A DNA stretch of 64,000 bases from assembly GCA_024686335.1 (NCBI GenBank), contig JAILCI010000006.1, positions 32,051 through 96,050 of the forward strand, given 5' to 3'. This stretch comes from Bacteroidales bacterium (GTDB lineage Bacteria > Bacteroidota > Bacteroidia > Bacteroidales > WCHB1-69). Every line of letters starts with the position of its first letter. Position 1 is the stretch's first letter. Below are positions 27,862 to 61,725 of the stretch, in pieces. A program made the translations under genes and the position numbers. The notes below the pieces were generated by a model. The model saw only the letters and a list, made by a program, of their open reading frames with translations, searched no databases and was not told the origin of the DNA.

Positions 27862-28300
27862 GGGAGTTATATACATGATGGCACAACAAATATGAGTATA
27901 AAGTCAAAAAAATGCATTTTAACCCCTTCATGATTTACTGAGGCACTTGACCATAGAGCACGCGGGCGGGCAGGCCGACATGCGGTGCGGACGCGGTGTG
28001 AATGGCCGGCCTCCAACAGCGGCGTGCAAAGGCGCTTGCGTTTACAAAATGCATGCCTTCCCTGTATTTTCTCTTTTGCCACATGCTGCATTTTTGTTTC
28101 CGTTTGCCGCCGATGTCAGAGGGCGGACAGAGCGGGCGGGATTCATGTCGGCTTGATCTTTTGACAACTTTTCTATTAAGAGAAAAGTTGAAGAATTATA
28201 ATGATGGAAGTTGACTGCCATGAAGCCCTTGCCTACCTCAAGAAAACATCTATTAGCAACATACTTAGGTATACAAGGTGCCATCAGGTATATAGTCCCC
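27862..28300 (+). mobile_element. MITE-like dispersed element, copy A (439 bp)
   Basis: Near-identical to three other copies; terminal inverted repeats gggagttatatacatgatggcac / ggggactatatacctgatggcac; flanked by 8-bp direct repeat TAAAAAAA (27854-27861, 28301-28308). Confidence 0.85.
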
Positions 28301-28334
28301 TAAAAAAATACGAAAATTGTCATGGATTTCTGAT

Positions 28335-28368
28335 GTAAAAAAGGGGCGCAACAAACGTTACGCCCCTT
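28335..28368 (-). terminator. Terminator for methylmalonyl-CoA mutase gene
   Basis: Minus strand aaggggcg ... cgcccctt stem followed by T-run. Confidence 0.75.
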
Positions 28369-28390
28369 AATTTCTAATGTCATTTCAGAC

Positions 28391-30538
28391 CTATTCTGCC
28401 ATCAGGAGTTCCAGCATGGCGATTGCGGAGGTGGCAATAGGGGTGCCAGGTCCGAAGATGGCGGCGACGCCACAATCGTAGAGGAACTGATAGTCTTGCG
28501 GCGGGATAACGCCACCGACGGTGATGATGATGTCCTCGCGGCCCAGTTTCTTGAGTTCCTCGATCACTTGCGGAACGAGGGTCTTGTGACCTGCAGCCAG
28601 AGAGGAGACGCCGAGGATGTGGACGTCGTTCTCGACAGCCTGCTTAGCGGCCTCTGCGGGAGTCTGGAACAGCGGTCCCATATCCACGTCGAAACCGATA
28701 TCGGCATAGCCGGTAGCGACTACTTTGGCGCCGCGGTCGTGGCCATCCTGGCCCATCTTGGCAACCATTACACGGGGGCGACGGCCTTCCTTCTTGGCAA
28801 ACTCATCGCACATCTTGCAAGCCTTCTTGAAGGCTTCATTGCTTTGTTGTTCTGCACTATACACGCCTGAAATCAGATTAATTTTTGCTTTATAACGACC
28901 GAATACCACTTCGAGGGCATCGGAAATTTCACCTAAGGAGCAACGAGCACGAGCGGCCTTGATGGAGAGGTCGAGGAGGTTGCCTTCGCCTGTGCGGGCG
29001 CACTCGGTCAGGGCATTCAAAGCTGCCTTCACCTCGTCATCGTTACGGTTGGCACGCAACTCGGCCAGACGTTTGAGCTGAGCCTCGCGCACGGTCGTGT
29101 TGTCCACCTCGAGCGTCTCGATGGGCTCTTCCTTGTCGAGTTTGTACTTGCTGACACCGATGATGGACTCTTTGCCGGAGTCGATACGGGCTTGCTTACG
29201 GGCAGAAGCCTCTTCAATACGCATCTTCGGCACACCAGTCTCGATAGCTTTGGCCATGCCACCCAGGGATTCAACCTCCTGGATGTGCTGCCATGCGCGG
29301 TGAGCAATTTGATGGGTCAGACTCTCTACATAGTAGGAACCAGCCCACGGATCTATGGATTTACAGATCTTCGTCTCTTCTTGGATGTAGATCTGCGTAT
29401 TACGAGCGATACGGGCGGAGAAGTCGGTCGGCAGGGCGATGGCTTCATCCAATGCGTTGGTGTGCAGTGACTGGGTGTGACCCAGAGCGGCACCCATTGC
29501 CTCCACACAAGTACGGCATACGTTGTTGAACGGATCCTGCTCGGTGAGAGACCAACCGGAGGTCTGGCAGTGCGTACGCAGAGCCATAGACTTCGGATTC
29601 TGCGGGTTGAACTGTTTCACGATCTTAGCCCAGAGCATACGGGCAGCACGCATTTTGGCAATCTCCATGAAGTGGTTCATACCGATACCCCAGAAGAAGG
29701 ACAAACGCGGTGCAAACTCATCCACGCTCATACCGGCGTTGACACCAGCGCGGAGGTACTCAAGACCGTCGGCCAACGTGTAAGCCAGCTCGATGTCATC
29801 AGTAGCACCGGCCTCTTGCATGTGATAACCGGAAATGGAGATGGAGTTGAACTTCGGCATGTTCTTGGAGGTGAACTCAAAGATGTCGGCGATGATCTTC
29901 ATGGATGGCAACGGAGGATAGATGTAGGTGTTACGCACCATGAACTCCTTCAAAATGTCGTTTTGGATGGTACCCGACAGCTTGTCCATGCTGACGCCCT
30001 GCTCCTCAGCAGCGAGGATATAGAAGGCCAGGATGGGCAGCACGGCTCCGTTCATCGTCATGGAGACAGACATCTTGTCCAACGGAATCTGGTCGAAGAG
30101 GATACGCATGTCGAGAATGGAATCCACGGCCACACCAGCCTTGCCCACATCGCCCACCACACGGGGATGGTCGGAGTCGTAGCCTCTGTGCGTCGCCAAG
30201 TCGAAGGCGATGGACAGACCCTTCTGACCGGCGGCCAAGTTGCGGCGGTAGAAGGCATTGGACTCCTCGGCGGTGGAGAATCCGGCATACTGACGGATAG
30301 TCCAAGGACGGAAGGCATACATCATGGAATAGGGTCCGCGCAAGAAGGGAGGAATACCGGCGGCATAGTTCAGGTGCTCCATTCCGAGAAGGTCATCCTC
30401 GCCATATACTTGTTTCACAGGTATTTGCTCGGATGTCATCCAGTCGGTGGAGATGCCATGTTCCTTTTCCCACTCGCGGAAATCTTTCTTTTCTTGAGAG
30501 ATTTTCTTGAAATCTACATTACTGAAATCACAACGCAT
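28391..30538 (-). CDS. mutB: Methylmalonyl-CoA mutase, catalytic subunit
   Basis: [58 protein letters not shown]-terminal B12-binding [24 protein letters not shown]. Confidence 0.95.
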
Positions 30539-30779
30539 AATCTAATTGCACTTTCTATATTTTAAGACGGCAAAAATACAAAAAAAATGGTACGATTTTG
30601 CAGTGCGAAAGTTTTTGATAAGTCACGAGGAAAGTTAAGAGTGGAGAGTGATCTGTGATCAGTTCGAAGCTCGGAATTCAACAAATCAACAGTTCAACGA
30701 TTCACCCTCTACCCTGAATTCCTTAGTTTCTTAACTCCCTTAACCTCTTAACCCATTTTTTGTATGTAACACCTCGTCT

Positions 30780-31346
30780 TTAAAACCTATGCTCATACCC
30801 GACTCGCAGCATGACGGTGTACCTCGGGTAGCCTAAGGATAACTGGCCATTGTCATTGACCTCTTCCCAGTTGCAGAAGAGTGTGCTGTGTACGCCTATG
30901 GTCAGTTTGTCTTGATTTGTCAAGCTGATGCGGCCTCCCAGACCCAGGGTGCCCCCAAGGTCCAGCACCTCCTTTGCGTTGGCGGCGACAGGACTGTCGA
31001 AGCAAACACCGAGCAGGATGCCTCCCTGCACATAGAAATGAGGCAGATGAAACTCCATTTCCACGGGAATGAGCAAGCTGTTGATGTGTTGGGAACCGAA
31101 AAAGAAGATATGTTCGTAGCGTAGCCCTGTGCGCACGCCCCAGTAACGATGGAAGTCATAGCGCATCCCAATGCCAAGGCCAAAGCCGGGAGAAACATCA
31201 TCGTAAAGAAATGGCAGTCTGTTAATGCCGCCACTTACATCGGCAGTGATGTTGTATCCTTTTTGAAATTCAGAATTGGGATTCTGGGCCTCTGCCGGAA
31301 GCACAGTCCAAAGACATAAACATAAAATTGGAATGATTTTTTTCAT
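30780..31346 (-). CDS. Outer-membrane beta-barrel protein
   Basis: Signal peptide MKKIIPILCLCLWTVLPAEAQ, beta-barrel pattern. Confidence 0.7.
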   Translation of the reverse strand: MKKIIPILCLCLWTVLPAEAQNPNSEFQKGYNITADVSGGINRLPFLYDDVSPGFGLGIGMRYDFHRYWGVRTGLRYEHIFFFGSQHINSLLIPVEMEFHLPHFYVQGGILLGVCFDSPVAANAKEVLDLGGTLGLGGRISLTNQDKLTIGVHSTLFCNWEEVNDNGQLSLGYPRYTVMLRVGYEHRF

Positions 31347-31526
31347 AACAATGTATTTTAGAGTGTGTTTATTGGATATTTGTTGTCGGTGTGTCAAAAG
31401 TTTTGCCGTTGGCCATTATCCATTGGCTTTTTAACTTCTTAGATTCTTCTCTCCTCTACAATTCAACAAATCAACACTCTATCCTCTAACCCCATTTACC
31501 CTAGAGGGCTTCTTCTCTCCTCAATG

Positions 31527-32588
31527 CTACAAATACCTTCTTCTAATCAGGTCGCACAAGGATAGGTAAGCGGTAGAGGTGGTATCCCAAAAGTGGGCTT
31601 TCTTCAAGTCTTCCAGACAGTTGAAGGCCTCGTCCATATCCTTGCACTGGTTCAGTTTGTGGATGGCTGAACTGAATTCTTCACCTCTGTTGTTGAAGAG
31701 TTCACGGATAAAGGTGAACTTGTCGTTTACGGAGATGGCTTTCGTAAGATCGACCACTTTCGACTGCTGGAACTGTCCGGCGACGGAGCGGTCTTCATTT
31801 TTAGGAGTGAAGAGATCGTTCAAAGAGCGTTGAGAAGCTGCCACCTTTGGGATTACCGGTTCAGCAGGTTTTGTAGTCTGTGGTCTTGGTATTTCCACTT
31901 TAGGCTCATCGGTTTTGGGCTCTGTTTTTACCTCGGCAGGTTTCTCCACAGGCTTGGGTTCCGGCTTTACCTCAACGGGTTTTTCAACGGGCTTTACCTC
32001 TACCGTTTTCTCCACAGGCCTAGGCTCCGGTTTAACTTCAACAGGTTTTTCGATCGGTTTTTCTTCCACGATCTTCTCTTCCAGCTTGGGTTCAGGTTTC
32101 ACCTCGGCAGGTTTGTTCTTCTCAGCAAAGAGAAGCAGGTCGTCCTCCTCAGTGCCGGTGGCGGGCTGGTCCTTTGCCTCGTCAAATAGCTCAGACATAA
32201 TGTCGTCGATACGCTCTTCGTCGGTAGGCTGCGGCTCCTCTTCGCCATCCTTTTGGGGCAGGTCAAGAGAGAAGAAAAGGTCCACATCCTCTTCCATCTT
32301 GGCATGGGTGTTGTATTTTTCCTCTTCGTGGGAAAGTTCCTCCACGATGGGCTCCAGATCTTCTACGGGCGTTGGTTCCTCAGGCTTCTCTTCAGCCACG
32401 GGTGGAATGGGTGCGGCGACTGCCTCTGTAGGCTCTTCCGTGACAGTGATAGCGGAGATGCGGGTATAGAGCTGGCGCAATTGCTCCATTAGAATATCTC
32501 TCTCTATTAGCGATATTTGAGCATCTTGCTCCAACAAACTGCGCAAAGAGTTGATAAGATTTTGAATCTGTTGATAAGTATTCTCCAT
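31527..32588 (-). CDS. Hypothetical protein with Pro/Glu/Lys-rich repetitive linker
   Basis: Coiled N-terminus; KPVEVKPEPxPVEK repeats; compact C-terminal region (NDKFTFIRELFNNRGEEFSSAIHKLNQC). Confidence 0.7.
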   Translation of the reverse strand: MENTYQQIQNLINSLRSLLEQDAQISLIERDILMEQLRQLYTRISAITVTEEPTEAVAAPIPPVAEEKPEEPTPVEDLEPIVEELSHEEEKYNTHAKMEEDVDLFFSLDLPQKDGEEEPQPTDEERIDDIMSELFDEAKDQPATGTEEDDLLLFAEKNKPAEVKPEPKLEEKIVEEKPIEKPVEVKPEPRPVEKTVEVKPVEKPVEVKPEPKPVEKPAEVKTEPKTDEPKVEIPRPQTTKPAEPVIPKVAASQRSLNDLFTPKNEDRSVAGQFQQSKVVDLTKAISVNDKFTFIRELFNNRGEEFSSAIHKLNQCKDMDEAFNCLEDLKKAHFWDTTSTAYLSLCDLIRRRYL

Positions 32589-32690
32589 TTTTAGGTCAGG
32601 TTTGATGGTCTTTGAACGTGTTTTTTTTTAATTTTGCCGTGCAAAAAAATCGGACAAAAATACAAAATTTCTCAATAGCTTTTTTCAAGA

Positions 32691-33275
32691 ATGTTTTTAG
32701 AAAATAGAGCCAATAGAAATACTAAACGCGGATGGATTGAGGTCATCTGCGGATCGATGTTCTCGGGCAAGACAGAGGAGTTGCTGCGCCGAATCCGTCG
32801 TGCTGAGTTCGCCAATCAGCAGATAGAACTCTTCAAACCAGCCATCGATACGCGATATGACGAGACGGAGGTGGTATCCCACAACGATTCCTCCCGCATC
32901 TCCACGCCGGTCCAGAACTCCTCCGAGATTTTGCTCTACGTTAATTTTGAGAGTGTCCAGGTGGTTGCTATCGACGAGGTGCAGTTCTTCGACGAAGGCA
33001 TTGTGGATGTTTGCAATAAATTGGCCGATGCAGGTATTAGGGTGATTGTCAGTGGATTGGATATGGATTATTTAGGAAATCCTTTCGGTCCAATGCCTCA
33101 GTTGATGGCTATTGCGGAATATGTCTCCAAACAGCATGCCATCTGCACCCGCTGTGGTGATTTAGCTCAGTTTTCCCACCGTATCACTGCCCAGGAGGGT
33201 CAGGTGGTCCTCGGCGAGAAGGATAAATATGAGCCGCTGTGCCGTCACTGTTTTAACGAAGTCAACAAGAAATAA
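32691..33275 (+). CDS. tdk: Thymidine kinase
   Basis: [30 protein letters not shown], zinc-binding CTRCGD. Confidence 0.95.
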
Positions 33276-33304
33276 CAATTTTAAATCAATTAAAAACTTG
33301 TATT

Positions 33305-34312
33305 ATGAATTTGATAGACAAGATTAAAGAAAACGCCATCAAAGCCAACAAAAGAATTGTTTTGGCAGAGGGCGAAGAAGAGAGAAACCTCAAAGCTGCT
33401 GACATCATCCTTGAAAAGGGTTATGCAGGCATCATCCTGTTGGGCAACAAGGCTAACATCGATGCGAAGGCTGCTGAATGGGGTCTGAAAAATATTGCAA
33501 AGGCAGAGGTTATTGACCCGCACAACAATCCTAAAAAGGAGTTCTATGCTGAGATGCTTTGCGAGATCCGTAAGAAAAAAGGCATGACCATGGATGAGGC
33601 TCTCAAGTTGGTTGAGGATCCTTTGTATCTGGCTACCCTGCTCATCAAGAATGGTGACGCTGACGGTGAAGTTACCGGTGCTGAGCACGCCACTGGCGAC
33701 GTTTTGCGTCCTGCCTTCCAGATCGTAAAAACCCTCCCGGGTATTTCCGTAGTTTCTGGCGCTTTCATCATGTGCTTCCCTGACAAGAAGTGGGGCGATG
33801 ATGGTATCATGGTCTTCGCTGACTGTGCTGCTGATCCGAACACGGATGAGAACAAGTTGGCTCAGATTGCAGTTGTTACTGCTCAGACCGCTCGCACCAT
33901 CGCAGGTATCGAACCGCGCGTGGCTATGTTGAGCTTCTCCACCAAGGGTTCCGCTAAGCACGAGCTGGTAGACAAGGTTGTCAATGCCACACGTATCGCC
34001 AAAGAGATGGATCCGAACCTCGTCATCGACGGTGATTTGCAGGCTGATGCCGCTATTGTTCCGTCAGTAGGCGAGAAGAAAGCTCCGGGCAGCCCTGTTG
34101 CTGGTAAGGCTAACGTTCTGGTGTTCCCGTCCCTCGAGGTCGGCAACATCGCTTACAAGTTGGTTCAGCGTATGGCAGGTGCCGACGCTATTGGACCGGT
34201 TATGCAGGGTATGGCTGCTCCTATCAACGACCTCTCCCGCGGTTGCTCCGTGGATGATATCGTCAGCCTCGTAGCCATCACTGCTTGCCAGGCCGCCGGC
34301 AACGCCTTCTAG
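33305..34312 (+). CDS. pta: Phosphate acetyltransferase
   Basis: RIVLAEGEEERNLKAADIIL, GEVTGAEHATGDVLRPAFQIVKT, LQADAAIVPSVGEKKAPGSPVAGKANVLVFPSLEVGNIAYKLVQR. Confidence 0.95.
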   Translation: MNLIDKIKENAIKANKRIVLAEGEEERNLKAADIILEKGYAGIILLGNKANIDAKAAEWGLKNIAKAEVIDPHNNPKKEFYAEMLCEIRKKKGMTMDEALKLVEDPLYLATLLIKNGDADGEVTGAEHATGDVLRPAFQIVKTLPGISVVSGAFIMCFPDKKWGDDGIMVFADCAADPNTDENKLAQIAVVTAQTARTIAGIEPRVAMLSFSTKGSAKHELVDKVVNATRIAKEMDPNLVIDGDLQADAAIVPSVGEKKAPGSPVAGKANVLVFPSLEVGNIAYKLVQRMAGADAIGPVMQGMAAPINDLSRGCSVDDIVSLVAITACQAAGNAF

Positions 34313-34315
34313 TTT

Positions 34316-34337
34316 CCAACTGCGAGGACGCAGTTGG
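34316..34337. repeat. Dispersed hairpin ccaactgcg-agga-cgcagttgg
   Basis: 9-bp perfect arms; core actgcgaggacgcagt recurs as its reverse complement at 50022. Confidence 0.8.
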
Positions 34338-34382
34338 CTCCGTGATTGGAGCAATCCGCGTCTCGCGGATTGAGATTTTCTT

Positions 34383-34418
34383 AAACGCAGAATACGTTTT
34401 CGTGTTCTGCGTTTTTTT
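34383..34418 (+). terminator. Terminator after pta
   Basis: aaacgcagaa ... ttctgcgttt followed by T-run. Confidence 0.85.
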
Positions 34419-34424
34419 ATATAT

Positions 34425-36467
34425 TTGACCAAAAAACAAAATATGAACTTCTCTAACTACCCTCTACTCAAAATTCTAATCCCTTACGTTTTTGGTCTGT
34501 TATTGGGCTATCTCGTGCCATTACCGACCTATTTTTGTCACTTCTCCTTCTTTATAGCCGCCTGTTTCTGGCTTCTTTCTTTGTTTTTTCGTCAAGAAAC
34601 AAGTGATTTTTGGCGGACGATAAAGACTCTTTTTTTGTGGTTGATATTCATTTTTGCGGGATTGTCGGCGATGACTTGGCGAATGATGCCGTCGGTGACA
34701 GCAGATGAGGAGCGGGTGATGGCGGGAGAAGAAGACTGGATTGTGGAGGTTGTGGAGGTGCCGGAGACGCGCGCGCGGAGTGTACGTGCCACGGCACAGG
34801 TTCTGGGAGGCGCGCGCGGTTCCTCCTTCCGCGAGAAGGTGCTGCTCTACCTTGCCCCCGACTCATTACATCCTATCCACTACGGAGACCTTTTGCTTGT
34901 TCATACGCAACTCAATGCCGTTGAAGAGCCAAAAAATCCAGATATGTTTGATTATCGCAGTTATTTGCATAAGCGCGGCATCTCCTTGACAGGCTATGTT
35001 GCCAAAGGCGGTGCTATGTTGTTGAGTCACCGCACTCCCGATCCATTGAAGGTCTTCTCGCAACAGATACAGAATCGTCTGGCTGGCCTTTTTCGGCAGT
35101 CGGGGATGAGCGGCCGCGAGTATGAGATTATCACGGCTATCCTGTTGGGTGCCGGCGGCAACCTGGATCCCGAACTCCGGCAGTCGTATGCCGCCGCCGG
35201 CGTCAGCCATATCCTCTGCGTTTCAGGTATGCATGTTGGCGTCATCTTCATGATTCTCAACTTCCTGATGAAACCCATGGAGCTGGCCCGCCAAACCCGC
35301 GCGGTCAAAGCTATCCTGCTTATCCTTACCATCTGGCTCTATGCCTGCATCACCGGACTCTCGCCCTCCGTTATCCGATCTGCCACCATGTTCTCATTTG
35401 TTACCATCGGCGGAATAGTTCACCGCAACACTAACATCTTTCATAGTCTTACCGCATCACTCTTTATCTTATTGATTATAAATCCATTACTATTATTCGA
35501 AGTTGGATTTCAACTTAGTTATCTCGCCGTTTTCGGTATTGTTCTTTTTCAGCCACTAATCGTTTCTATCTATCATGCTAAAACGAAAATTGGACGCTAT
35601 CTTTTTGAACTAATCTCAGTCTCCATTGCTGCTCAACTTGGAACTTTTCCTATCTCCATCTTCTATTTTGGACAGTTTCCTAACTATTTTATCTTTTCCA
35701 ACCTGTCGGTTATCACGTTGTCGTCCGTTGTCATAATCACAGGCATCGTGTTATTGGTTACCTCTTTTATTCCCTTTTTAGTTAAGGGAGTGGCGCTTAT
35801 TTTGACTGGAGAAATTCGTCTTATGAACAATATCATTGGCTTTATAGAGCAGTTGCCGCATTCTGTCACCGACAATATCGATTATCATTATTTGCAAGTG
35901 ATCTTTTTATACGTCGCTATTTTTGGTTTTTATCTTTTGATTATTCATAAACGTAAGCACTGGTTTTGGATTACTTTGAGTGCTTTTACCCTTTTTTCTG
36001 GCTGTTTCGCCATCAAAAAAGTCTGGTTAACTAGTAGCGATGAAATGGTTATCTATCAGATTCGAGGTGTGAGTGCGATAGGATTTCGCGATGGGAATGA
36101 ATGTGTTTTTCTCTCTGATTCTATTAAAGATTTAGAGAGTTCTCTATTTGAATATAACATAGGTAATCATTATCGAAAACAGCATGCGAAATATATCTTT
36201 GTAAATGTTGATTCAAGCAAATATTGTAATGATTTTGTCTATAAAAATGGTCGATTTATCTGTTTTAAGAAGAGCAAATATTTTTTATTAAAGAAAAATG
36301 AAAAGATTTATCCCGCTATTCATCCTATTGAGGTGGATGGGATTATTCTCCAATACAATCCACGTCAACTACCTGAGGAGGTGTCACGGGGTGTGCATTT
36401 TCGGTCAATCATTATGGATGGCACGGTGACACCTTTTTATCGGAAACGATGGCAAAATGTTCCGTAA
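34425..36467 (+). CDS. ComEC/Rec2-family competence protein
   Basis: YRSYLHKRGISLTGYV, AILLGAGGNLDPELRQSYAAAGVSHILCVSGMHVG, TGLSPSVIRSATMFS. Confidence 0.93.
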   Translation: MTKKQNMNFSNYPLLKILIPYVFGLLLGYLVPLPTYFCHFSFFIAACFWLLSLFFRQETSDFWRTIKTLFLWLIFIFAGLSAMTWRMMPSVTADEERVMAGEEDWIVEVVEVPETRARSVRATAQVLGGARGSSFREKVLLYLAPDSLHPIHYGDLLLVHTQLNAVEEPKNPDMFDYRSYLHKRGISLTGYVAKGGAMLLSHRTPDPLKVFSQQIQNRLAGLFRQSGMSGREYEIITAILLGAGGNLDPELRQSYAAAGVSHILCVSGMHVGVIFMILNFLMKPMELARQTRAVKAILLILTIWLYACITGLSPSVIRSATMFSFVTIGGIVHRNTNIFHSLTASLFILLIINPLLLFEVGFQLSYLAVFGIVLFQPLIVSIYHAKTKIGRYLFELISVSIAAQLGTFPISIFYFGQFPNYFIFSNLSVITLSSVVIITGIVLLVTSFIPFLVKGVALILTGEIRLMNNIIGFIEQLPHSVTDNIDYHYLQVIFLYVAIFGFYLLIIHKRKHWFWITLSAFTLFSGCFAIKKVWLTSSDEMVIYQIRGVSAIGFRDGNECVFLSDSIKDLESSLFEYNIGNHYRKQHAKYIFVNVDSSKYCNDFVYKNGRFICFKKSKYFLLKKNEKIYPAIHPIEVDGIILQYNPRQLPEEVSRGVHFRSIIMDGTVTPFYRKRWQNVP

Positions 36468-36579
36468 TTTAGTGAACTACAAAGGACCATTAAAAGTTCT
36501 AGTATGATAAAGAAAGGCTCTACTTTCGCAAGCCCTTCTTTCATAAATTCATAGTTTAATAGTTTAATACTTTCATAAA

Positions 36580-38184
36580 CTATTCCCATTCAATCGTGGC
36601 GGGTGGTTTGGAGCTGATGTCGTAGCATACGCGGTTCACGCCTTTCACCTTGTTGATGATATCGTTGGAGACCTTAGCCATAAACTCATAAGGCAGATGT
36701 GCCCAGTCGGCGGTCATGGCATCGGTGCTGGTGACGGCGCGCAGGGCTACCGCCTGCTCGTAGGTGCGCTCGTCGCCCATGACGCCCACACTCTTGATGG
36801 GCAGCAGGATGACACCGGCTTGCCAAATTTGGTCATATAGCGACACTTCAATCTCTCCATTAGACATGTTGGCGGGTACTCCGGCGGCCAAAACTTTTCG
36901 GGCATCTTCGCCACTCAGTTTGACTTTCCAGTCGCGGAGCCCTTGGATGAAGATGTCGTCGGCATCTTGCAGGACGCGTACTTTTTCTCTGGTGATGTCG
37001 CCTAAAATTCGAACTGCCAGGCCCGGTCCCGGGAATGGATGGCGTGTGATGAGGTGCTCGGGCATGCCTAACTGACGACCCACGCGGCGAACTTCGTCTT
37101 TGAAGAGCCATTTCAGCGGCTCGCAAAGCTGAAGATGCATCTTCTCGGGCAGTCCACCCACATTATGGTGACTCTTGATAACCATACCGGTAATGCTGAG
37201 ACTCTCGATACGGTCAGGATAGATGGTGCCTTGTGCTAACCATTTTGCATCAGTAATCTTTTGTGCTTCAGCGTTGAAGACATCGATGAATCCTGCACCG
37301 ATGATCTTGCGCTTGCGTTCTGGTTCTGACACGCCTTCCAATTCTTTGAAGAACTTCTCGCTGGCATCTACACCAATGACGTTCAGTCCCAGTCCTTCGT
37401 AGTCACGCATCACATTCTCAAACTCATGTTTGCGTAATAAACCGTGATCTACAAAGATGCAAGTAAGGTTCTTACCGATGGCACGGTTCAGCAGCACTGC
37501 GCAGACGGATGAGTCTACGCCGCCGCTCAAGCCCAGGATGACGCGATCGTTGCCAATCTGCTCTTTAAGTTCTGCCACTGTGGTCTCCACAAAGGAGGCT
37601 GGGCTCCATGTCTGGTGACCTCCACAAATACCGACCACAAAGTTCTTCAGCAGTTGTGTACCTTGAACTGTATGGAATACCTCGGGATGGAATTGTACGC
37701 CCCAAACTTGCTCGCCTTCAAACTGATAGGCAGCGAAGTCAACCTTGTCGGTTGAGGCAATCTTGCGACAGTTTTCGGGCAGTCGGGTGATGGTGTCGCC
37801 ATGACTCATCCACACTTGAGTGTTGTCAGCAAGTCCCTGCAGCAGAGGGTTGTCATGCTCGAAGGATGATAAGTTGGCGCGGCCGTATTCACGACTGCCA
37901 GCAGATTCCACGTTACCACCATTGGTATAGGCCATGTACTGTGCGCCGTAGCAGATTCCTAAGATGGGCAAACGTCCGCGAATGCCTGTCAAGTCTACCT
38001 TGAATGCGCGCTCGTCGTAGACGCTAAACGGAGATCCACTCAAAATGACTCCTATTACATCTTTATCATCATGAGGAAATTTGTTATAGGGAACGATTTC
38101 ACAGAACATATCCAGTTCACGGATACGACGACCTATCAGTTGGGTGGTTTGGGAACCGAAATCGAGAATGATAATTTTTTCCAT
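36580..38184 (-). CDS. guaA: GMP synthase (glutamine-hydrolysing)
   Basis: [49 protein letters not shown]-terminal [11 protein letters not shown]. Confidence 0.98.
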
Positions 38185-43205: not shown

Positions 43206-45473
43206 ATGCGTAAAAACAATCTACGTTTTTTCAAAATTACTTCCATCTTCTTCTTAGTGATGGCTCTTGTCGTATTACCTTCAGCGCTTTTAGCACAGGT
43301 AGACACTGCCCAACACTACGAGTTGGAAAGTGTGGACATCTTTTATCAGAAACCTACCGTTCAAACGGCTGGCAACACTACTCTGATGTCCTTCCCGCAA
43401 ATCCGTGCCCAGCAAGGTAACGGTAGTGTCAACAACCTTTTGGAGATGATGCCCTCCATCGTCACCACTTCTGAGTCAGGTACTGGACTTGGTGCTACTT
43501 ACATGTTCATCCGTGGCATCGACCAGACCCGTATCAACACCACCCTTAATGGTGTCACCATCAACAATGCAGAATCTCAGGGTTCTTGGCTGGTGAACCT
43601 GCCCGATATGGGAACCTATATTGAGAATGTCAGTGTGCAGAGCGGCGCCAACACCTCCGAGGGTTCTACCTCCTATGGTGCTCGTGTGGACTTTGTGACT
43701 CGTGACATTCCGACAAAAGCTTTTGCCGAGGCAAGAAGCTCATATGGCTCTTTCAACACCTTCCACAATACTGTTAGCGCCGGAACGGGTCTCATCGGCA
43801 AGCGTTTTTCCATGTTGGCATCTTTCTCCGATATCCGCAGCGACGGTTACATCGACCACTCTGGTGTCCGTCTCAACTCCGGTTTTCTGACCGCTCAGTA
43901 CAATCTTTATAACTTCAAAAAGAATAAAGACTATGGTAAACTGAGATTCCACATGTTGTATGGCAATGAGAATACGCAGCTTGCCTGGAACGGTGTGCCT
44001 TATGAATTATTGGAGACTAACCGTACATACAACGATTGTGGTGCCTATTATACAGACAATGGCGATCTCTGCTATTATGATGAAGCCAAAGACCATTATA
44101 CTCAAACCTTCTACCAGCTTGAGTATTTGAAAGATTGGATTCGTGACGAAGGTTTCCAGACTCACAAATTGCAAGTGATGCCTTATCTTACCCGCGGTTT
44201 TGGCTATTATGAGCAGTACAAAGATGACAAGAAAATCCGTAACTATGGCCTCGAGCCTCTGTTTGACTCTTTAAATCGTGCAGACTTTGTTACTCAGAAA
44301 TACTTGGACAACTACTATTATGGTGCTCTTGCTCAATATACTGGTACACAAATCTTTAAAAACCACAAAGAGCAGGGTATGCGCTGGATGGCAGGTATGG
44401 ATGTTAGCAACTACAAAGGTCATCATTATGGTAACCTGATTTGGGAACAACCCAATCGCATTTTGGATTGTCCGGCTAACTACGAGTGGTATAGAGGTGT
44501 TGGCAATAAACTGCAGTCAAAGATCTTCGGCAACTTGCGCTACTGGTACAAGAACTTTAGCGTGACGGCTGAATTGCAGTATCGCCGCGTGGATTATACC
44601 ATCGATGGTGTCAACGATGAGCTGACTCCTATTGATCAGGATTATCATTGGAATTTCATCAATCCTAAGATTGCCCTACACTACTACCTGCAAGGTGAAA
44701 AGCTGCAACACAGTTTCGACCTCTCTTTTGCTACCGCTAATCGTGAGGCTACTCGTGATGACCTCATTGGCGCTCCTGAAGGTCGTAAGCCTGTTCCTGA
44801 GACCGTCTATGACCTGGAGTTCAGCTATTTGATGCACAATGATAAGTTCTTCTTCAACACTACTCTCTATGGTATGTATTATCAAAACCAGTTGGTACGT
44901 ACTGGCGAACTTGACCAGACCGGTGATCCGCTCATGACCAATGTGGACAAGAGCTATCGTGCTGGTATTGAGTTGTCTGCAGCCTATCGTCCAGTACGTT
45001 TCTTCACTTGGCATGTCAATGGCGCTTTCAGCCTCAACCGTATTCTCAACTATGTACACTACACTGAGGATTGGGATAATGGCGGTTATGTTGAGCGTCA
45101 ATGCGGTAACACACCTATCGCCTTCTCACCGGCTATCATCATTGGTAATGACTTCACATTTACCCCGATAAAGGATTTCAACATCTCTCTTATCACCAAG
45201 TTTGTCAGCAAACAATATCTTAACAACTCTGCCGATGAGACTTATGTTTTGAAACCTTATACCTATACTAATCTCCGACTCTCCTACACTTTCCATTTCA
45301 AATGTCTTAAGGATCTGGAACTCTTCTTCAACATCAACAACCTTTTCAATACGAAATATGAAAACAACGCTGCATTATACACAGGTTGGTCTGGTGGCGA
45401 AACTTATTACTACCCTTATTATTTTCCGCAGGCTGGTATTAACTTCCTTGGTGGTGTAAGAATAAAATTTTAA
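43206..45473 (+). CDS. TonB-dependent receptor, probable thiamine transporter (TPP-controlled)
   Basis: Plug FIRGIDQTRINTTLNGVTINNAESQGSWLVNLPDMGTYIENVSVQ; barrel ends GGVRIKF; directly downstream of the TPP riboswitch. Confidence 0.88.
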   Translation: MRKNNLRFFKITSIFFLVMALVVLPSALLAQVDTAQHYELESVDIFYQKPTVQTAGNTTLMSFPQIRAQQGNGSVNNLLEMMPSIVTTSESGTGLGATYMFIRGIDQTRINTTLNGVTINNAESQGSWLVNLPDMGTYIENVSVQSGANTSEGSTSYGARVDFVTRDIPTKAFAEARSSYGSFNTFHNTVSAGTGLIGKRFSMLASFSDIRSDGYIDHSGVRLNSGFLTAQYNLYNFKKNKDYGKLRFHMLYGNENTQLAWNGVPYELLETNRTYNDCGAYYTDNGDLCYYDEAKDHYTQTFYQLEYLKDWIRDEGFQTHKLQVMPYLTRGFGYYEQYKDDKKIRNYGLEPLFDSLNRADFVTQKYLDNYYYGALAQYTGTQIFKNHKEQGMRWMAGMDVSNYKGHHYGNLIWEQPNRILDCPANYEWYRGVGNKLQSKIFGNLRYWYKNFSVTAELQYRRVDYTIDGVNDELTPIDQDYHWNFINPKIALHYYLQGEKLQHSFDLSFATANREATRDDLIGAPEGRKPVPETVYDLEFSYLMHNDKFFFNTTLYGMYYQNQLVRTGELDQTGDPLMTNVDKSYRAGIELSAAYRPVRFFTWHVNGAFSLNRILNYVHYTEDWDNGGYVERQCGNTPIAFSPAIIIGNDFTFTPIKDFNISLITKFVSKQYLNNSADETYVLKPYTYTNLRLSYTFHFKCLKDLELFFNINNLFNTKYENNAALYTGWSGGETYYYPYYFPQAGINFLGGVRIKF

Positions 45474-54047: not shown

Positions 54048-54324
54048 GTCATTTAAATTATTGGGAATGCAAAAATACAAAAATTTATACGTGATGGAAA
54101 AGGATGCAAAAAATCAAAATTTTATGGTGTTTTTGCATAAAAATCACTACCAAAATGCCATAAATGGAAGGCATTTGATTATTATATATCTAAATATTTG
54201 TTAACAATTCCTTTTCTTGTTTAGTATAACATTTTGAAAATAAGGAGGTTGTTTTGTTCGGTTATAGGCAGTCTCTTATGAAATATTTTTTCAATTTTCT
54301 TGTTGATTTTGACAAAAAAAAATA

Positions 54325-54332
54325 TATTTTTG
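54325..54332 (+). promoter_or_regulatory. -7 promoter box TATTTTTG
   Basis: TAnnTTTG upstream of 54364, with an upstream ttgac. Confidence 0.5.
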
Positions 54333-54363
54333 TAACTCTAATAATTAAAAAAAACAGTTTACT

Positions 54364-54813
54364 ATGAATGAGCAAGAGAACAATGTCCCCTTTTTCCGTT
54401 TTGAGGATTTGAGGATCTATGCTAAAGCGATGGACTATATCACTTGGCTGTATCAAACATTGAATGTGGAGTTTAGCAATGACAATGTGCGTTTTTTGGT
54501 AAAATCTTTTCTAAAATCAGCACATAATATTGCATTGAATACAGCTGAGGGCTCATCACGAAACAAGGCACAGTTTCTTTACTATTTGAAGATGGCGAAG
54601 AGCGCTGTACGTGAGTGTGTGGTGTTCACTGAGATTGCCAAAAATAACAACATTTTAAATGACACAGATTATGAATTTTCCCGTGGGAAGTTGGTAGAGC
54701 TTACCAAGATGATTGGCTCACTTATTGCTTCTCTGCAGAGAATCACAAATAATCAGGAAACCGATGCGGATATGGATGTATCCACTCCATCCTTCCCTGA
54801 TGAATTAGAATAG
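54364..54813 (+). CDS. Four-helix bundle (S23-like) protein
   Basis: FEDLRIYAKAMDYITWLYQ ... SAHNIALNTAEGSSRNKAQFLYYLKMAKSAVREC. Confidence 0.88.
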   Translation: MNEQENNVPFFRFEDLRIYAKAMDYITWLYQTLNVEFSNDNVRFLVKSFLKSAHNIALNTAEGSSRNKAQFLYYLKMAKSAVRECVVFTEIAKNNNILNDTDYEFSRGKLVELTKMIGSLIASLQRITNNQETDADMDVSTPSFPDELE

Positions 54814-54845
54814 TCCTCAAAAAAGAAATCTTTAAATCAAACAGA

Positions 54846-54880
54846 AAAGCGGTGATTTTCAGGATGAAGGTCACCGCTTC
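54846..54880 (+). terminator. Terminator after the S23-like gene
   Basis: agcggtga ... tcaccgct plus T-rich tail. Confidence 0.65.
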
Positions 54881-54897
54881 TTTTATGATGAATCGCT

Positions 54898-55461
54898 TTA
54901 GAAGGTGTAGCCAACCTTGGCCTCAATACCTCCGTTGAAACCATTGTCGCTAGGAAAGGTCCTGAAGAAGAAGCCTCCAGTGAAGGAAAATGCCTTCACA
55001 CGAAAACCTCCAGCAAGGGTGGCATATAAACCAATGCCGTTTCTTGGCTCAGAGGCATAATACTCATTATAGATAAATCCAGAATCATCTTCATGAGTGA
55101 CGTATAAGTCCTCATCCCAAAAATGAAATGCAGCACCGACGGCAATATTGATACATGGCATCAGTTTGCGGCCGCGGTCGAAGTAGTGACGGTAGTTCAA
55201 AAACAACGGAACCTCCTGGAAGGTGCCAGTGTTAATGCCATAGCCGACACCAATGCCAACATTATCCATTTTGTTGATGCTGATCCCATTAATGAAGACA
55301 CCTGAGAAACCTACATTCTTACCGAAGAAGAAACCATACTCATTGATGAAGTTGTATTGGACTTTCTTTTCGGGTTGATTTTCCTCTTGAGCTGAAAGCA
55401 TTCCTGCACTGAGGAACAAGACAGCAAATAAGACTAAAATGATTCTGTAACTCTTTTTCAT
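54898..55461 (-). CDS. Outer-membrane beta-barrel-like protein, paralog 2
   Basis: Signal peptide; near-identical segments to the next ORF (LFLNYRHYFDRGRKLMPCINIAVGA). Confidence 0.75.
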   Translation of the reverse strand: MKKSYRIILVLFAVLFLSAGMLSAQEENQPEKKVQYNFINEYGFFFGKNVGFSGVFINGISINKMDNVGIGVGYGINTGTFQEVPLFLNYRHYFDRGRKLMPCINIAVGAAFHFWDEDLYVTHEDDSGFIYNEYYASEPRNGIGLYATLAGGFRVKAFSFTGGFFFRTFPSDNGFNGGIEAKVGYTF

Positions 55462-55481
55462 ATGTTTTATTTTTTGGAATT

Positions 55482-56045
55482 TTAGAAGGTATAGCCAACT
55501 TTAACCTCTATACCACCATTGAAACTCTTGTCGTTGGGGAATGTTCTGAAAAAGAAACCTCCAGTGAAGGAGAATGCCTTGACACGAAAACCGCCAGCGA
55601 CGGTGGCATATAGACCTATACCCTTTTTGGGCACATAGTCATAAAAATCATAGTAAGTATAACCATATTCATCCACATGGGTTATAGCAAAAAGATCTTC
55701 CCAGAAATGGAAGGAAGCACCAACGGCTGCATTGATGCACGGTACCAGCTTTCGACCACGGTCGAAGTAGTGACGGTAGTTCAAAAACAACGGGACCTCC
55801 TGAAAGGTAGCAGTGTTGATGCCATAGCCGACGCCAATACCGATAGCGTCCACCTGGTTGATGGTGATACCATTGACAAAGACGCCTGTGAAACCAACAT
55901 TCTTGCCGAAGAATCCACCATACTCATTGATGAAATTGTATTGGATCTTCTTTACGGGTTGATTTTCCTCTTGAGCTGAAAGCATTCCTGCACTGAGGAA
56001 CAAAACAGCAAACAAAGCCAAAATGATTTTGTAACTTTTCTTCAT
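55482..56045 (-). CDS. Outer-membrane beta-barrel-like protein, paralog 1
   Basis: Tandem paralog of 54898-55461; start at ATG 56045 (MKKSYKIILALFAVLFLSAGMLSAQ). Confidence 0.75.
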   Translation of the reverse strand: MKKSYKIILALFAVLFLSAGMLSAQEENQPVKKIQYNFINEYGGFFGKNVGFTGVFVNGITINQVDAIGIGVGYGINTATFQEVPLFLNYRHYFDRGRKLVPCINAAVGASFHFWEDLFAITHVDEYGYTYYDFYDYVPKKGIGLYATVAGGFRVKAFSFTGGFFFRTFPNDKSFNGGIEVKVGYTF

Positions 56046-56195
56046 ACTGATTATTTTTTTATACATAAAATAGAAAACGAACTTTCTTAAACTATATTGC
56101 ATTAGTTGATGAAAATTTTGGCGAAAAGAAATATCATCTCATTTTTATATAAGATGCAAAAATCGAGAAAGGTTGCAAAATAATGGATGGAGTGA

Positions 56196-56630
56196 TATAC
56201 ATGATGGCACAACAAAAATGAGTACAAAGTCAAAACAAAATGCATTTTAATCTTAACATGATTTACCGAGGCACCTGCCCATAGAGCACGCGGGCGGGAA
56301 GGCCGACATGCGGTGCGGACGCGGTGTGAATGGCCGGCCTCCAACAGCGGCGTGCAAAGGCGCTTGCGTTTACAAAAATGCATGCCTCCCGTTTATTTTT
56401 CCTTTTGCGACATGCTGCATTTTTGTTCCCGTTTGCCGCCGCTGTCAGAGGGCGGACAGAGCGGGCGGGATTCATGTCGGCTTGATCTTTTGGCAACTTT
56501 TCTATCAAGAGAAAAGTTGAAGAATTCTATTTATGGGAGTTGCCAGCCATAACGCTCTTGTCTCCTTCAAAAAAACGTCTATCAGAAACATACTTGGGCA
56601 TAAAAGGTGCCAAGGTATATAGTCCCAAAA
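56196..56630 (+). mobile_element. MITE-like dispersed element, copy B (~435 bp)
   Basis: High identity to copies A, C, D; flanked by 14-bp direct repeat aatggatggagtga (56182-56195, 56631-56644). Confidence 0.8.
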
Positions 56631-56662
56631 AATGGATGGAGTGACGGCATCATCCTTTTTTG

Positions 56663-56670
56663 TATCTTTG
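56663..56670 (+). promoter_or_regulatory. -7 promoter box TATCTTTG for xylB
   Basis: TAnnTTTG 47 bp upstream of the ATG. Confidence 0.55.
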
Positions 56671-56715
56671 TCCGCTATTTTTCTCAGTGATGTTTGATCA
56701 AGTAAATTGACGACT

Positions 56716-58200
56716 ATGTATTTTTTAGGAATAGACTTAGGAAGTTCTTCGGTAAAGGTTACTCTTTTGGATGGCGATACTGGCAAAGTTGCCGCCAGTG
56801 CCTCCGCCCCGCAACAAGAAGCCCCGATTTTGGCTGTCCAGAACGGATGGGCGGAGCAGAACCCAGCCGACTGGTGGAGTTATATGAAGACGGCCTTGCA
56901 GACGGCTCTGCAATCAGGCCAGGTCAATGCCAAAGACATAAAGGCTGTCGGCATCACCTATCAGATGCATGGTTTGGTGCTGGTCGACAAGGGTTTGCAA
57001 GTGCTGCGTCCCTCCATCATTTGGTGCGACAGTAGGGCTGTCCCTTACGGAGAGAGGGCCTTTGAGACGTTGGGTCATGACTACTGTCTGCAGCATCTTC
57101 TCAACTCGCCTGGCAACTTCACCGCGGCTAAGCTGGCGTGGGTGCGCGAGAACGAGCCCGAACTCTTCGAACGTGTTTATAAGTTTATGCTCCCCGGTGA
57201 CTATCTGGCTATGCGTATGACGGGCGAGGTGCGGACCTCAGTGCCCGGCCTCTCCGAAGGAATGTTCTGGGACTTTGAGAACAATACCGTCTCTGAGCCG
57301 TTGCTCACCCACTTTGGTATCCCTGTGGAGATGATTGCCGACACCGTGCCGACTTTTGGAATACAGGGTGAGCTGTTGTCGTCTGCAGCTGCAGAGTTGG
57401 GTCTTCCTGCTGGTATCCCTATTTGTTATCGCGCCGGTGATCAGCCTAATAATGCCTTCTCCCTCAATGTGTTAAATCCTGGCGAGGTGGCCGCCACTGC
57501 AGGCACCTCCGGCGTAGTTTACGGCATCAATGACCAGGTCTGTACGGATCCTAAATCCCGTATCAACATTTTCGCTCATGTGAACCATCAGCCTGACCAG
57601 CCCCGTTTGGGCGTGATGCACTGCACTAACGGAGTGGGTATCCAAAACGCCTGGATGAAACGGATGGTGGCCCCGGAGGTCTCCTACGACCAATTTAACG
57701 AGATGGCCGCGCAGGCTCCCATAGGCTCCGACGGCGTTACAGTGATACCCTTTGGCAATGGCGCCGAGCGTATCTTGGAAAATCGTCAACTGGGTGGTTC
57801 TATCCATGGATTGAATTTTAACAATCATAATGCCAGTACTTTAGCCCGCGCCGCCCAAGAGGGTGTGGCCTTCTCTTTCAAGTATGGAATGGATATCATG
57901 CGTGAGACAGGCATGAACACACGCGTCATACGCGCAGGCCACGCCAATATGTTCCTGAGTCCTATCTTCCGAACGACTCTGGCAACAGTGGCTGATGCTA
58001 CAATAGAACTCTATGACACTAATGGTTCTGTGGGTGCCGCTATTGGCGCCGCATTGGGATCAGGTTATTATAAGTCTTCGCAGGATGCTTTTGCCCCACT
58101 GCAAAAATTGGCCGTTGTGGAACCCGATACTCTCCAAAAAGAGAGATATGAGGAGGCATACAATCGTTGGAAATCGGTTCTGAATATGAATTTGGGATAG
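56716..58200 (+). CDS. xylB: Xylulokinase (FGGY family)
   Basis: LGIDLGSSSVKVTLLDGDTGKV, GITYQMHGLVLVD, PGDYLAMRMTG, ATAGTSGVVYG. Confidence 0.93.
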   Translation: MYFLGIDLGSSSVKVTLLDGDTGKVAASASAPQQEAPILAVQNGWAEQNPADWWSYMKTALQTALQSGQVNAKDIKAVGITYQMHGLVLVDKGLQVLRPSIIWCDSRAVPYGERAFETLGHDYCLQHLLNSPGNFTAAKLAWVRENEPELFERVYKFMLPGDYLAMRMTGEVRTSVPGLSEGMFWDFENNTVSEPLLTHFGIPVEMIADTVPTFGIQGELLSSAAAELGLPAGIPICYRAGDQPNNAFSLNVLNPGEVAATAGTSGVVYGINDQVCTDPKSRINIFAHVNHQPDQPRLGVMHCTNGVGIQNAWMKRMVAPEVSYDQFNEMAAQAPIGSDGVTVIPFGNGAERILENRQLGGSIHGLNFNNHNASTLARAAQEGVAFSFKYGMDIMRETGMNTRVIRAGHANMFLSPIFRTTLATVADATIELYDTNGSVGAAIGAALGSGYYKSSQDAFAPLQKLAVVEPDTLQKERYEEAYNRWKSVLNMNLG

Positions 58201-58323
58201 ATTTTAATTCATAAACATCTGATTTACATAATGCCATTGATGTCAGTGTTGCCTTTTGTGTATGCGCTGGACTTTGTATCGGTTATGAACATAAGTTTTA
58301 ACCCTAACATCTCTATCTTTTTT

Positions 58324-58768
58324 AAGGGACTACATACCTGATGGCACCTTATATGTCCAGGTATGTTGCTAATAGACATTTTTTGAGGGAGAAAAGGGCT
58401 TTATGGCAGGCAACTCCCATATATTTAATTCTACAACTTTTCTCTTGATAGAAAAGTTGCCAAAAGATCAAGCCGACATGAATCCCGCCCGCTCTGTCCG
58501 CCCTCTGACATCGGCGGCAAACGGGAACAAAAATGCAGGACGTGGCAAACGGGAAATATCACGGAAGGCATGCATTTTTGTAAACGCAAGCGCCTTTGCA
58601 CGCCGCTGTTGGAGGCCGGACATTCACACCGCGTCCGCACCGCATGTCGGCCTGCCCGCCCGCGTGCTCTATGGGCAGATGCCTCGGTAAATCATGTTGG
58701 GCTAAAATGCAATTTGTTTTGACTTTATACTCATCTTTGTTGTGCCATTATGTATACACCCCTCCTTT
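58324..58768 (-). mobile_element. MITE-like dispersed element, copy C (~445 bp, inverted)
   Basis: Reverse-complement match to A, B, D; flanked by direct repeat tatctttttt (58314-58323, 58769-58778). Confidence 0.82.
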
Positions 58769-58800
58769 TATCTTTTTTGAACACAAAAACAACTCCGACA

Positions 58801-59802
58801 TCACTCAAAACGCTTAGCACGTCCAATGTTGGCATGGTATTCCTTTTGGCAATTACCAGTAATATCAACTTCACCAGTAAAGGAATAATTGGAAATATAT
58901 GCTGTGCCTGTAACATTGGCATGGATATCTCCGACCCCTGAGTGTGTGATGTGGGCGATGGCACTCTTTAATTGTTGGGCAGAGACACTGCCGGAGCCAT
59001 CGCTCACCAGGTTTAGCGATACGGCTTGGCCGGTAAGACGTGTGTCGCCGGTGCCATTGTTTTTCAACCCTAGTTGTTTTGCACATATGTTGCGAATGGT
59101 AATGTCGCCAACTCCTTTATTCTGCAATGTGGCATTCTCAGTCTGCCAGCCCATCATATTAACCAATATATCTCCTGTACCTAGATTGTTGGCAATCATT
59201 GATTTGCTTATATAACTGGATGTAATAGTGACATCTCCCACCCCAGCATTATGGATAAATAGAGAAGGGACGGTGACTGTGGCAGAGGCAGGAAAAACTA
59301 TATCCCCCACACCAGTGTTGTGAATCTCCAGCGACTCCTCTAAATCCAGTTGTTTTATTAGGCAATCCCCCACACCGGAATTATAGATTGATATTCTTTT
59401 TTCGGTGCGTGGTTCCATTGTTGCATCACCAACGCCTCGATTGGTCAGTTCCTCTAAATGTGGTGTGTAGATCTCCACCTGAATAGCTGCTTTTTCAAAA
59501 GAGACATCTTCATCGCTAATTTCGATATATAGTTTTTCTTCAGCTACTCTATGACGGACATATCCCTCGATATTGTCATCCGCCTTTACCACAACTTTGT
59601 GTTCAGGACCTTGTTTGATTACAACACTTCCCAAGAAGTTGATATCTATAGAGTTGAAGGGTTCTTCCGTGTATTCCCTGGTGACGATATTTCCACTGGC
59701 AACAATTCGTTTTTGTGCGCTGATCATACTGATGGGAAGTATGAGAAGCAGTATTAAAAATGTCTTTTTCATAATGTTTGTTTTTAAAAATATCTTTTTC
59801 AT
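58801..59802 (-). CDS. Head GIN (DUF2807)-domain exported protein
   Basis: Signal peptide; FNSIDINFLGSVVIKQGPEHKVVVKADDNI; repeated GVGD/NxGVGD beta-helix-like motifs. Confidence 0.85.
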   Translation of the reverse strand: MKKIFLKTNIMKKTFLILLLILPISMISAQKRIVASGNIVTREYTEEPFNSIDINFLGSVVIKQGPEHKVVVKADDNIEGYVRHRVAEEKLYIEISDEDVSFEKAAIQVEIYTPHLEELTNRGVGDATMEPRTEKRISIYNSGVGDCLIKQLDLEESLEIHNTGVGDIVFPASATVTVPSLFIHNAGVGDVTITSSYISKSMIANNLGTGDILVNMMGWQTENATLQNKGVGDITIRNICAKQLGLKNNGTGDTRLTGQAVSLNLVSDGSGSVSAQQLKSAIAHITHSGVGDIHANVTGTAYISNYSFTGEVDITGNCQKEYHANIGRAKRFE

Positions 59803-59816
59803 AATGTTTGTTTTTA
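59763..59816. repeat. 30-bp-period tandem duplication over the head-GIN start codon
   Basis: tctttttcataatgtttgttttta at 59763 and again at 59793. Confidence 0.9.
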
Positions 59817-61211
59817 GTGGTGATTAATAAGATCCTCTTTAGAGTGAGCTACTGGCACCGCAATATTGCCCTGCAAGTCTATAAAGCCGTAGAAGTTGCC
59901 CTTGCGAACCAGAGCGAGACCATCTCTGTAGAATCCGAATTTGCCGATCTCGTCGTATTGGGGGTGCACGACTTCTCGACCGCTACTGTCCACGAATCCC
60001 TTGAATCCAAAGAGGTCCACCAAGGCCCAGCCGCTCCGATATTCGTCAAAGCAGCCGATGTCACTGTATTTTGGTTCAACCACCATCTGGTCCAGCTCAT
60101 TGGCTAACCCGCAATAGCCGTTGCGCTGGACCTTTTTTAGGCTATGACAATTCTGCTTTGGCGCTGGAGATGACTTATCCTCCACTGTTATTATGGTGGT
60201 TTTTTTCTTTACTGCATGACCTAGGGTGTTGTACAACTCATCGACACTTATCTTTATTGTTTTTGGTTCCTCTTCTGCCTCTTCTGCCTCTTTTGCCTCC
60301 GATGTTTGTTTTTCGGCAGATTCGGCTGCAACAACTTGCGGAGGTTCTATAAATGAAATAGTGTCAATTTCTGGCACTGGTTCCATGGTTTGTACCTGAG
60401 TAGTGTCAATGACAGGCTCGGCAGGAGTTGGGGCACTTGGCTCTGCTGGTTGTGCCTGCCATACAGCGACAGAGCCGGCAACTGCGGTGGTGAGGACACC
60501 CGTGGCGATGGCTGGAACTTTGGCGGCAGAGAGGGTCAGCAGGGCAGAGGTCTTGGGCGCCGTGGCCCATTCAAAGCCCGTCAGCGGTGACGGAGCGGAA
60601 GGCGCCACGACCAGATGCCTCAGCTTGGCTCGGCAGATGCGATCCACCGCATGACCCCGTAATGATAACAGAGATAGTATGACCATGATGCCTGATTTTT
60701 TATGATTGTGTTTGTTTTTTAAAATCTCCTGTAATTGCGTTCGCGCCTCTGCCAAGTATCGTTTTGAACTGCGGACCCCAATCTGCAACATCTCCGCAAT
60801 TTTTGTATGTCTTTGGTTTTCAAATACGTATAGATTGAAAACGGCTCGTTGTTTGTCGGGAAGATGGTGGATGGCTTCCAGAATGTCCTCTTCGGTGAAA
60901 TCGTCGGGCGATATCTCCGCATCATTGGTCGATTCAACCGGATCTGAATACGCTTCTTCCATTTCGTCAATCGGCAGGAACTGTGGCTGCCGGCGGAGGT
61001 AATCCAGCGTGTTGTTCAAGTTGATACGCATCAGCCATCCGTCGAAGTGACCCAGCTGGCGGAAACTGTCCGACTTCTCAATAGCTCGGATGAAGGCTTC
61101 GTGCGCCAAATCCTCCGCCGTAGCCTTGTCCTTGACATAGCGACAGTTGACGCCGATCATCTTGCCGATATTGCGTTGGTATACCCGTGTCCAGAAACGT
61201 TCCGCCTGCAT
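59814..61211 (-). CDS. ECF-type sigma factor fused to TM segment, acidic linker and WG repeats
   Basis: Sigma region 2 (DKATAEDLAHEAFIRAIE...FDGWLMRINLNNTLDYLRR), region 4 (LPDKQRAVFNLYVFENQRHTKIAEMLQIGVRSSKRYLAEARTQLQ), hydrophobic VPAIATGVLTTAVAGSVAVW, WG repeats YRSGWALVDLFGFKGFVDSSGREVVHPQYDEIGKFGFYRDGLALVRKGNFYGFIDLQG; ATG 61211 preferred over track TTG 61235. Confidence 0.85.
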   Translation of the reverse strand: MQAERFWTRVYQRNIGKMIGVNCRYVKDKATAEDLAHEAFIRAIEKSDSFRQLGHFDGWLMRINLNNTLDYLRRQPQFLPIDEMEEAYSDPVESTNDAEISPDDFTEEDILEAIHHLPDKQRAVFNLYVFENQRHTKIAEMLQIGVRSSKRYLAEARTQLQEILKNKHNHKKSGIMVILSLLSLRGHAVDRICRAKLRHLVVAPSAPSPLTGFEWATAPKTSALLTLSAAKVPAIATGVLTTAVAGSVAVWQAQPAEPSAPTPAEPVIDTTQVQTMEPVPEIDTISFIEPPQVVAAESAEKQTSEAKEAEEAEEEPKTIKISVDELYNTLGHAVKKKTTIITVEDKSSPAPKQNCHSLKKVQRNGYCGLANELDQMVVEPKYSDIGCFDEYRSGWALVDLFGFKGFVDSSGREVVHPQYDEIGKFGFYRDGLALVRKGNFYGFIDLQGNIAVPVAHSKEDLINHH

Positions 61212-61232
61212 CTTCTCTTTTATAATATGACG

Positions 61233-61240
61233 CAAAGATA
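61233..61240 (-). promoter_or_regulatory. -7 promoter box TATCTTTG for the ECF-WG gene
   Basis: Minus-strand TATCTTTG about 22 bp upstream of ATG 61211. Confidence 0.6.
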
Positions 61241-61285
61241 CAAAAAGGGGCCAATTTTTTTTCGGCCCCTGTTCTGATTATTTTA

Positions 61286-61725
61286 GGGAGGTATATACAT
61301 GATGACACAACAAAGATGAGTGCAAAGTCAAAAAAAAGCATTATAACCCCAACTTGATTTACCGAGGCACCTGCCCATAGAGCTCGCGGGTGGGTAGGCC
61401 GACATGCGGTGCGGACGCGGTGTGAATGGCCGGCCTCCAACAGCGGCGTGCAAAGGCGCTTGCGTTTACAAAAATGCATGCCCTCCCTGTATTTTTTCTT
61501 TTGCTACATGCTGCATTTTTGTTCCCGTTTGCCGCCGATGTCAGAGGGCGGACAGAGCGGGCGGAATTCATGTCGGCTTGATCTTTTGGCAACTTTTCTA
61601 TCAAGAGAAAAGTTGAAGAAATATAACTATAGGAGTTGCTTGCCATGAAGCCCTTCCCTCCCTCAAGAAAACATCTACTAGCAACATACTTAGGCATACA
61701 AGGTGCCATCAGGAATATAGTCTAC
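61286..61725 (+). mobile_element. MITE-like dispersed element, copy D (440 bp)
   Basis: Flanked by perfect 8-bp direct repeat TTATTTTA (61278-61285, 61726-61733); same inverted-repeat ends as copy A. Confidence 0.87.

Follow-up and report, generated by a model that had tools for sequence, protein, structure and literature searches.

A MITE of Bacteroidales genomes with a conserved core of predicted RNA-like fold

MITEs such as those of Porphyromonas gingivalis (PMC4596501) and Coxiella (PMC5896051), reviewed in PMC10969869, are short, have no transposase, end in inverted repeats flanked by target duplications and occur in many intergenic copies, some with internal deletions, all of which they share with the element described here. 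IS1595-family elements usually generate 8-bp target duplications, and the ends of the related Merlin elements begin with GG (PMC8101967); the present element has both traits, and its end sequence resembles that of IS1595-like genes of the same genomes. With the structured RNAs of Rfam 15 and of comparative surveys (PMC2864571) its core has in common covarying stems, conserved unpaired motifs and a probable pseudoknot. We put at roughly 0.8 the probability that the element is a MITE whose ends are used by a trans-acting DDE transposase, most likely of the IS1595/Merlin type, and which carries a structured cargo module of a wider Bacteroidales repeat family. The transposase would recognise the 22-23-bp ends in trans and insert the element, with an 8-bp duplication, between genes in A+T-rich DNA, for instance in the T-run that follows a terminator. 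The cargo would be a module of ~220 nt from the much wider family, arranged as outer stem, inner stems, variable tip and a hairpin whose loop could pair with TTGAT just upstream, and its role as RNA might be that of an element-level or a host regulatory RNA.

The window, that is the whole 64,000-nt stretch of DNA analysed, contains four blocks of ~440 bp that an earlier note had described as one repeated element. They are indeed copies of one element, as seen from a repeat search of the window (pairwise matches of up to 342 bp with 84-93% identity), from BLAST and from the end sites. The coordinates that the note gave for copies A and D are exact, with 8-bp TAAAAAAA and TTATTTTA, respectively, at their bounds, and the inverted ends of copy A match at 19 of 23 positions, as it had counted. 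The borders of B and C are imperfect: TATCTTTTTT lies on both flanks of copy C, 2-4 bp outside its best bounds (58326-58765), and the bounds of copy B (~56188-56626) are approximate and non-canonical, because its left end is damaged and overlapped by the 14-bp AATGGATGGAGTGA repeat. The features are as follows.

27862..28300, + strand: copy A, full-length element, 439 bp (BLAST, end comparison, flank comparison)
27854..27861, no strand: target duplication TAAAAAAA, 8 bp, left of copy A (flank comparison)
28301..28308, no strand: target duplication TAAAAAAA, 8 bp, right of copy A (flank comparison)
27862..27884, + strand: left terminal inverted repeat of copy A, GGGAGTTATATACATGATGGCAC (end pattern)
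28278..28300, - strand: right terminal inverted repeat of copy A, GGGGACTATATACCTGATGGCAC, read inwards (end pattern)
27974..28193, + strand: predicted structured core of copy A, long stem and pseudoknot-type hairpin (covariance model R1, 245 bits)
56188..56626, + strand: copy B, left end damaged, 14-bp direct repeat AATGGATGGAGTGA on both sides (BLAST)
56302..56522, + strand: predicted structured core of copy B (covariance model R1, 266 bits; fold z -3.7)
58326..58765, - strand: copy C, inverted (repeat search, BLAST)
58431..58651, - strand: predicted structured core of copy C (covariance model R1, 259.5 bits)
61286..61725, + strand: copy D, full-length element, 440 bp, site empty in relative G015 (flank and empty-site comparison)
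61278..61285, no strand: target duplication TTATTTTA, 8 bp, left of copy D (flank comparison)
61726..61733, no strand: target duplication TTATTTTA, 8 bp, right of copy D (flank comparison)
61398..61618, + strand: predicted structured core of copy D (covariance model R1, 262 bits)

All four copies are intergenic, and their Pfam-matched neighbours comprise a TonB receptor, methylmalonyl-CoA mutase, an FGGY kinase, a DUF2807 protein, a sigma-70 plus WG-repeat protein and a sulfate permease. None contains a transposase reading frame, in agreement with the earlier note; the longest stop-free frame spans 120 codons and is unlike between copies. Elsewhere in the window, a tandem paralogous ORF pair with 79-84% identical DNA and no Pfam match adjoins copy B (54897-56102), a TPP riboswitch (RF00059, 43069-43158) precedes the ORF at 43206, and 45-bp tandem repeats (ATTATTCGCCCGTACAATACCCGCCATATTGCAATGATCCC..., 63825-64000) overlap the ORF at the window end.

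A genome-wide blastn search, the check proposed at the outset, finds further copies, with 44 matches to copy A in the 2.74-Mb, 64-contig genome, and the end pattern, its sites paired inwards, occurs at 68 positions compared with 0 for the reversed pattern that served as control. Together with the long repeat matches, these counts argue that the likeness of the blocks is not due to chance. Merging of BLAST matches and end sites yields ~55 copies and deletion derivatives. The element is 439-445 bp long, short enough for a MITE at a limit of ~600 bp, has no conserved ORF and is bounded by terminal inverted repeats of 22-23 bp, GG...TATATACNTGATGGCAC, with GGGAGT, GGTAAT and GGTGAT as observed starts, while derivatives of 141-350 bp are devoid of parts of the interior and many of them retain both ends. 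A protein-coding core was rejected since no frame is common to the copies, as was a phage, plasmid or viral origin, for which there was no match. The end family is found in 16 of the 40 genomes of the window's genus and in one other genus, to which two genera the MITE ends are nearly confined in a family-level comparison. We note that in G001, G016 and G020 identical transposon ends surround an unlike, G+C-rich interior with its own inverted repeats (L132:337-1013, L140:1008-1522, L143:1501-2172).

The 8-bp flanks are identical in 25 of 94 end-bounded elements from the window's genome and related genomes, compared with 4.3 expected from randomly paired (shuffled) left and right flanks, which allows for A+T richness. 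These duplications are A+T-rich, with TAAAATAA, AACTTTAA and AATATTAA among the non-homopolymers, and the element frequently resides in the run of Ts that follows a terminator-like hairpin. Flanks were joined, both for the G018 sites and for copies A and D of the window, and looked for in eight relatives; continuous sites without the element were recovered for copy D in G015, for L178 in G019 and for L173 in G011, the empty orthologous sites that the earlier note had looked to relatives for. In addition, G018 and G019 have one insertion in common that differs by an internal deletion. The element is thus a non-autonomous transposon (MITE), given the 8-bp duplications, the interior-deletion derivatives, the empty sites and the common insertion, and the original proposal of a non-autonomous mobile element in A+T-rich intergenic DNA is borne out.

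Within this genome, the 23 full copies contain two near-invariant blocks (~101-196 and 227-338 of the element) separated by a variable stretch (~197-226) that forms the stem tip; core divergence is 1.7%, compared with 9% outside the core, and the ends and spacers vary at ~9-14%. This contrast cannot be read as per-copy selection in this assembly, because derivatives with a broken fold are equally conserved (1.9%), and such selection was dropped as unsupported. Rather, gene conversion, recent deletion or assembly loss of private variants may explain it. That gene conversion or assembly homogenisation, and not selection, is mainly responsible has a substantial chance of being right, if short of even: the near-equal divergence of broken and full copies fits it, and in a 64-contig assembly private variants of high-copy stretches could have been smoothed away, but a variable 30-nt loop persists in the middle of the core, and from species to species and genus to genus the core is under constraint, with compensatory changes. 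The case for constraint on the core is therefore the comparison between species.

In the predicted fold, the core of ~220 nt forms a long stem and a hairpin with a probable pseudoknot. The outer stem, GCCGACATG/CATGTCGGC, encloses inner stems CGGCCTC/GAGGGCG, ACAGCGGCG/CGCCGCTGT, GCAAA/TTTGC and ACAAAAATGCA/TGCATTTTTGT, and 3' of these the hairpin CAACTTTTCT/AGAAAAGTTG exposes a loop, ATCAA, that can pair with the upstream TTGAT. An alignment of 50 sequences has 98.3% paired cells and double compensatory changes at 43 of the 50 pairs, compared with 42-49% and 12-16 pairs when partners are slid by 1-3 columns; the alignments, being fitted to a covariance model, favour structure, but the effect is far above these slid controls. 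None of 500 shuffles reaches the observed covariation, and in the order-wide alignment 96.5% of cells pair and 49 of 50 pairs covary. Pairing of the loop with its upstream partner is kept across TTGAT/ATCAA, TTGAC/GTCAA, TTGAA/TTCAA, AAGAT/ATCTT and GCTC/GAGC (mean complement 4.6 nt, compared with 2.8 with shuffled loops), and GTGAATG, CAGAGCGGG and TTGATNTTTTG are conserved as unpaired motifs. The structured repeat that the earlier note had offered as its alternative thus describes the interior, an evolutionarily constrained fold as judged from the double changes in 43 of 50 and 49 of 50 pairs. An extra closing helix outside the core is unsupported, 215 of 500 mismatched pairings being equally good.

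The core extends well beyond the ends that carry it here. A first covariance model, built from 17 sequences, detects it in 9 of the family's 17 genera (32 of 104 genomes), and a second in 62 of the 174 genera of the order Bacteroidales (69 of 247 genomes), mostly without MITE ends. Matches across the phylum (84 of 345 genomes) are weak outside Bacteroidales and often comprise the outer stem and hairpin only, such that an occurrence beyond the order is tentative. Some cores without MITE ends adjoin genes whose reading frame starts MKSENLNINLLTDFGFKRFFG (L250, with three cores in 2.5 kb, and L255), which resemble Rpn/PD-(D/E)XK-type nuclease genes. The core has no match in Rfam 15 at the gathering score and no credible one at E up to 10, and the element, which the earlier note allowed might prove to be an annotated entry, matches no Rfam 15 family.

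The transposase is probably of the IS1595/Merlin type, as proposed from the 8-bp duplications, the GG ends and the likeness to the ends of local IS1595-like genes. Four such genes are intact in the window's genome (PF12760, PF12762, NF033547); the local gene ends, CAATAGATACNTGTTGGC, have 14-15 of 17 bases as in the MITE ends, and intermediate ends, TATATACYTGWTGGCAC, occur on MITEs of genus g4 (G043). PF12762 genes number 22, in 11 of the 40 genus genomes, where the best end likeness to the MITE is 14-15 of 17 and none is exact. Scans of the solo ends, of every PF12762 locus in these 40 genomes and of the G043 ends gave no autonomous partner with identical ends, the IS with matching terminal repeats that the earlier note had suggested looking for. 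The IS1595-like genes (L110-L131, e.g. L110:1343-2358) mostly form units of 975-1072 bp with inverted repeats of 17-18 bp, CAATAGATACNTGTTGRC, the inner bases of which agree within any one unit; no target duplications are found at these genes in the genus genomes, and they are possibly domesticated or unusually moved. Since no gene with exact MITE ends was found and the IS1595-like genes are without target duplications, the assignment is likely but unproven. Movement of the ends by a transposase of another family would account for the missing identical partner and for several MITE-rich genomes, G001, G016 and G020, that give no PF12762 match despite many ends; it is somewhat doubtful in view of the 8-bp duplication, the GG ends, the likeness at 14-15 of 17 bases and the intermediates in G043.

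With respect to how the fold acts, the pairing pattern leans slightly towards RNA, read from the strand that starts GCCGACAT. The order-wide helices contain 58 G.T and 11 A.C oppositions (30 and 9 columns), an excess expected if that strand folds with wobble pairs, although these cells are not independent observations and the model itself may favour G.U. Action as DNA, as a cruciform or single-strand hairpin involved, for example, in binding or in a replication or transposition structure, would agree with the mostly Watson-Crick pairs and with the folding of both strands that inverted-repeat symmetry entails; indeed, a good fold is obtained for the opposite strand too (z -5.3), and thermodynamic folding does not separate the two. 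The G.T excess, the RNA-like unpaired motifs and the pseudoknot pairing nevertheless make a DNA structure unlikely. We give even odds to the fuller model suggested by the RNA reading, in which the core would be a previously undescribed, high-copy, pseudoknotted structured-RNA family found throughout Bacteroidales, perhaps all Bacteroidota, and captured by transposon ends in the window's genus, which would amount to a mobile gene for a non-coding RNA. Finally, an immobile, domesticated repeat spread via recombination or segmental duplication, to which the imperfect borders of B and C and the cores without MITE ends might point, is very improbable and largely refuted already by the 8-bp duplications that directly abut the ends and by the empty sites in relatives.

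Should the core prove to be a functional RNA, the current annotation of a major phylum of the gut and rumen would lack an abundant class of non-coding RNA that a transposon spreads. Even with the core acting as DNA, a fold that compensatory change preserves over many Bacteroidales families, in and out of transposons, raises the question of whether the element's spread or a host process selects for it. Both questions are directly testable in cultured species with many genomic copies.

In contrast to the MITEs of P. gingivalis and Coxiella, the present element has an interior, the cross-genus structured module, that is better conserved than its ends, and its parent IS was not found. Compared with IS1595 and Merlin elements it is devoid of an internal transposase, and none with the same ends was found; compared with known structured-RNA families its core is without an Rfam match, has very many copies and here travels on a transposon. 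Searches of the open full-text literature gave no description of the element or its core, although subscription papers were outside this search and one may exist elsewhere. The MITE type is already known, whereas a MITE with a cross-genus structured module as its conserved part is new.
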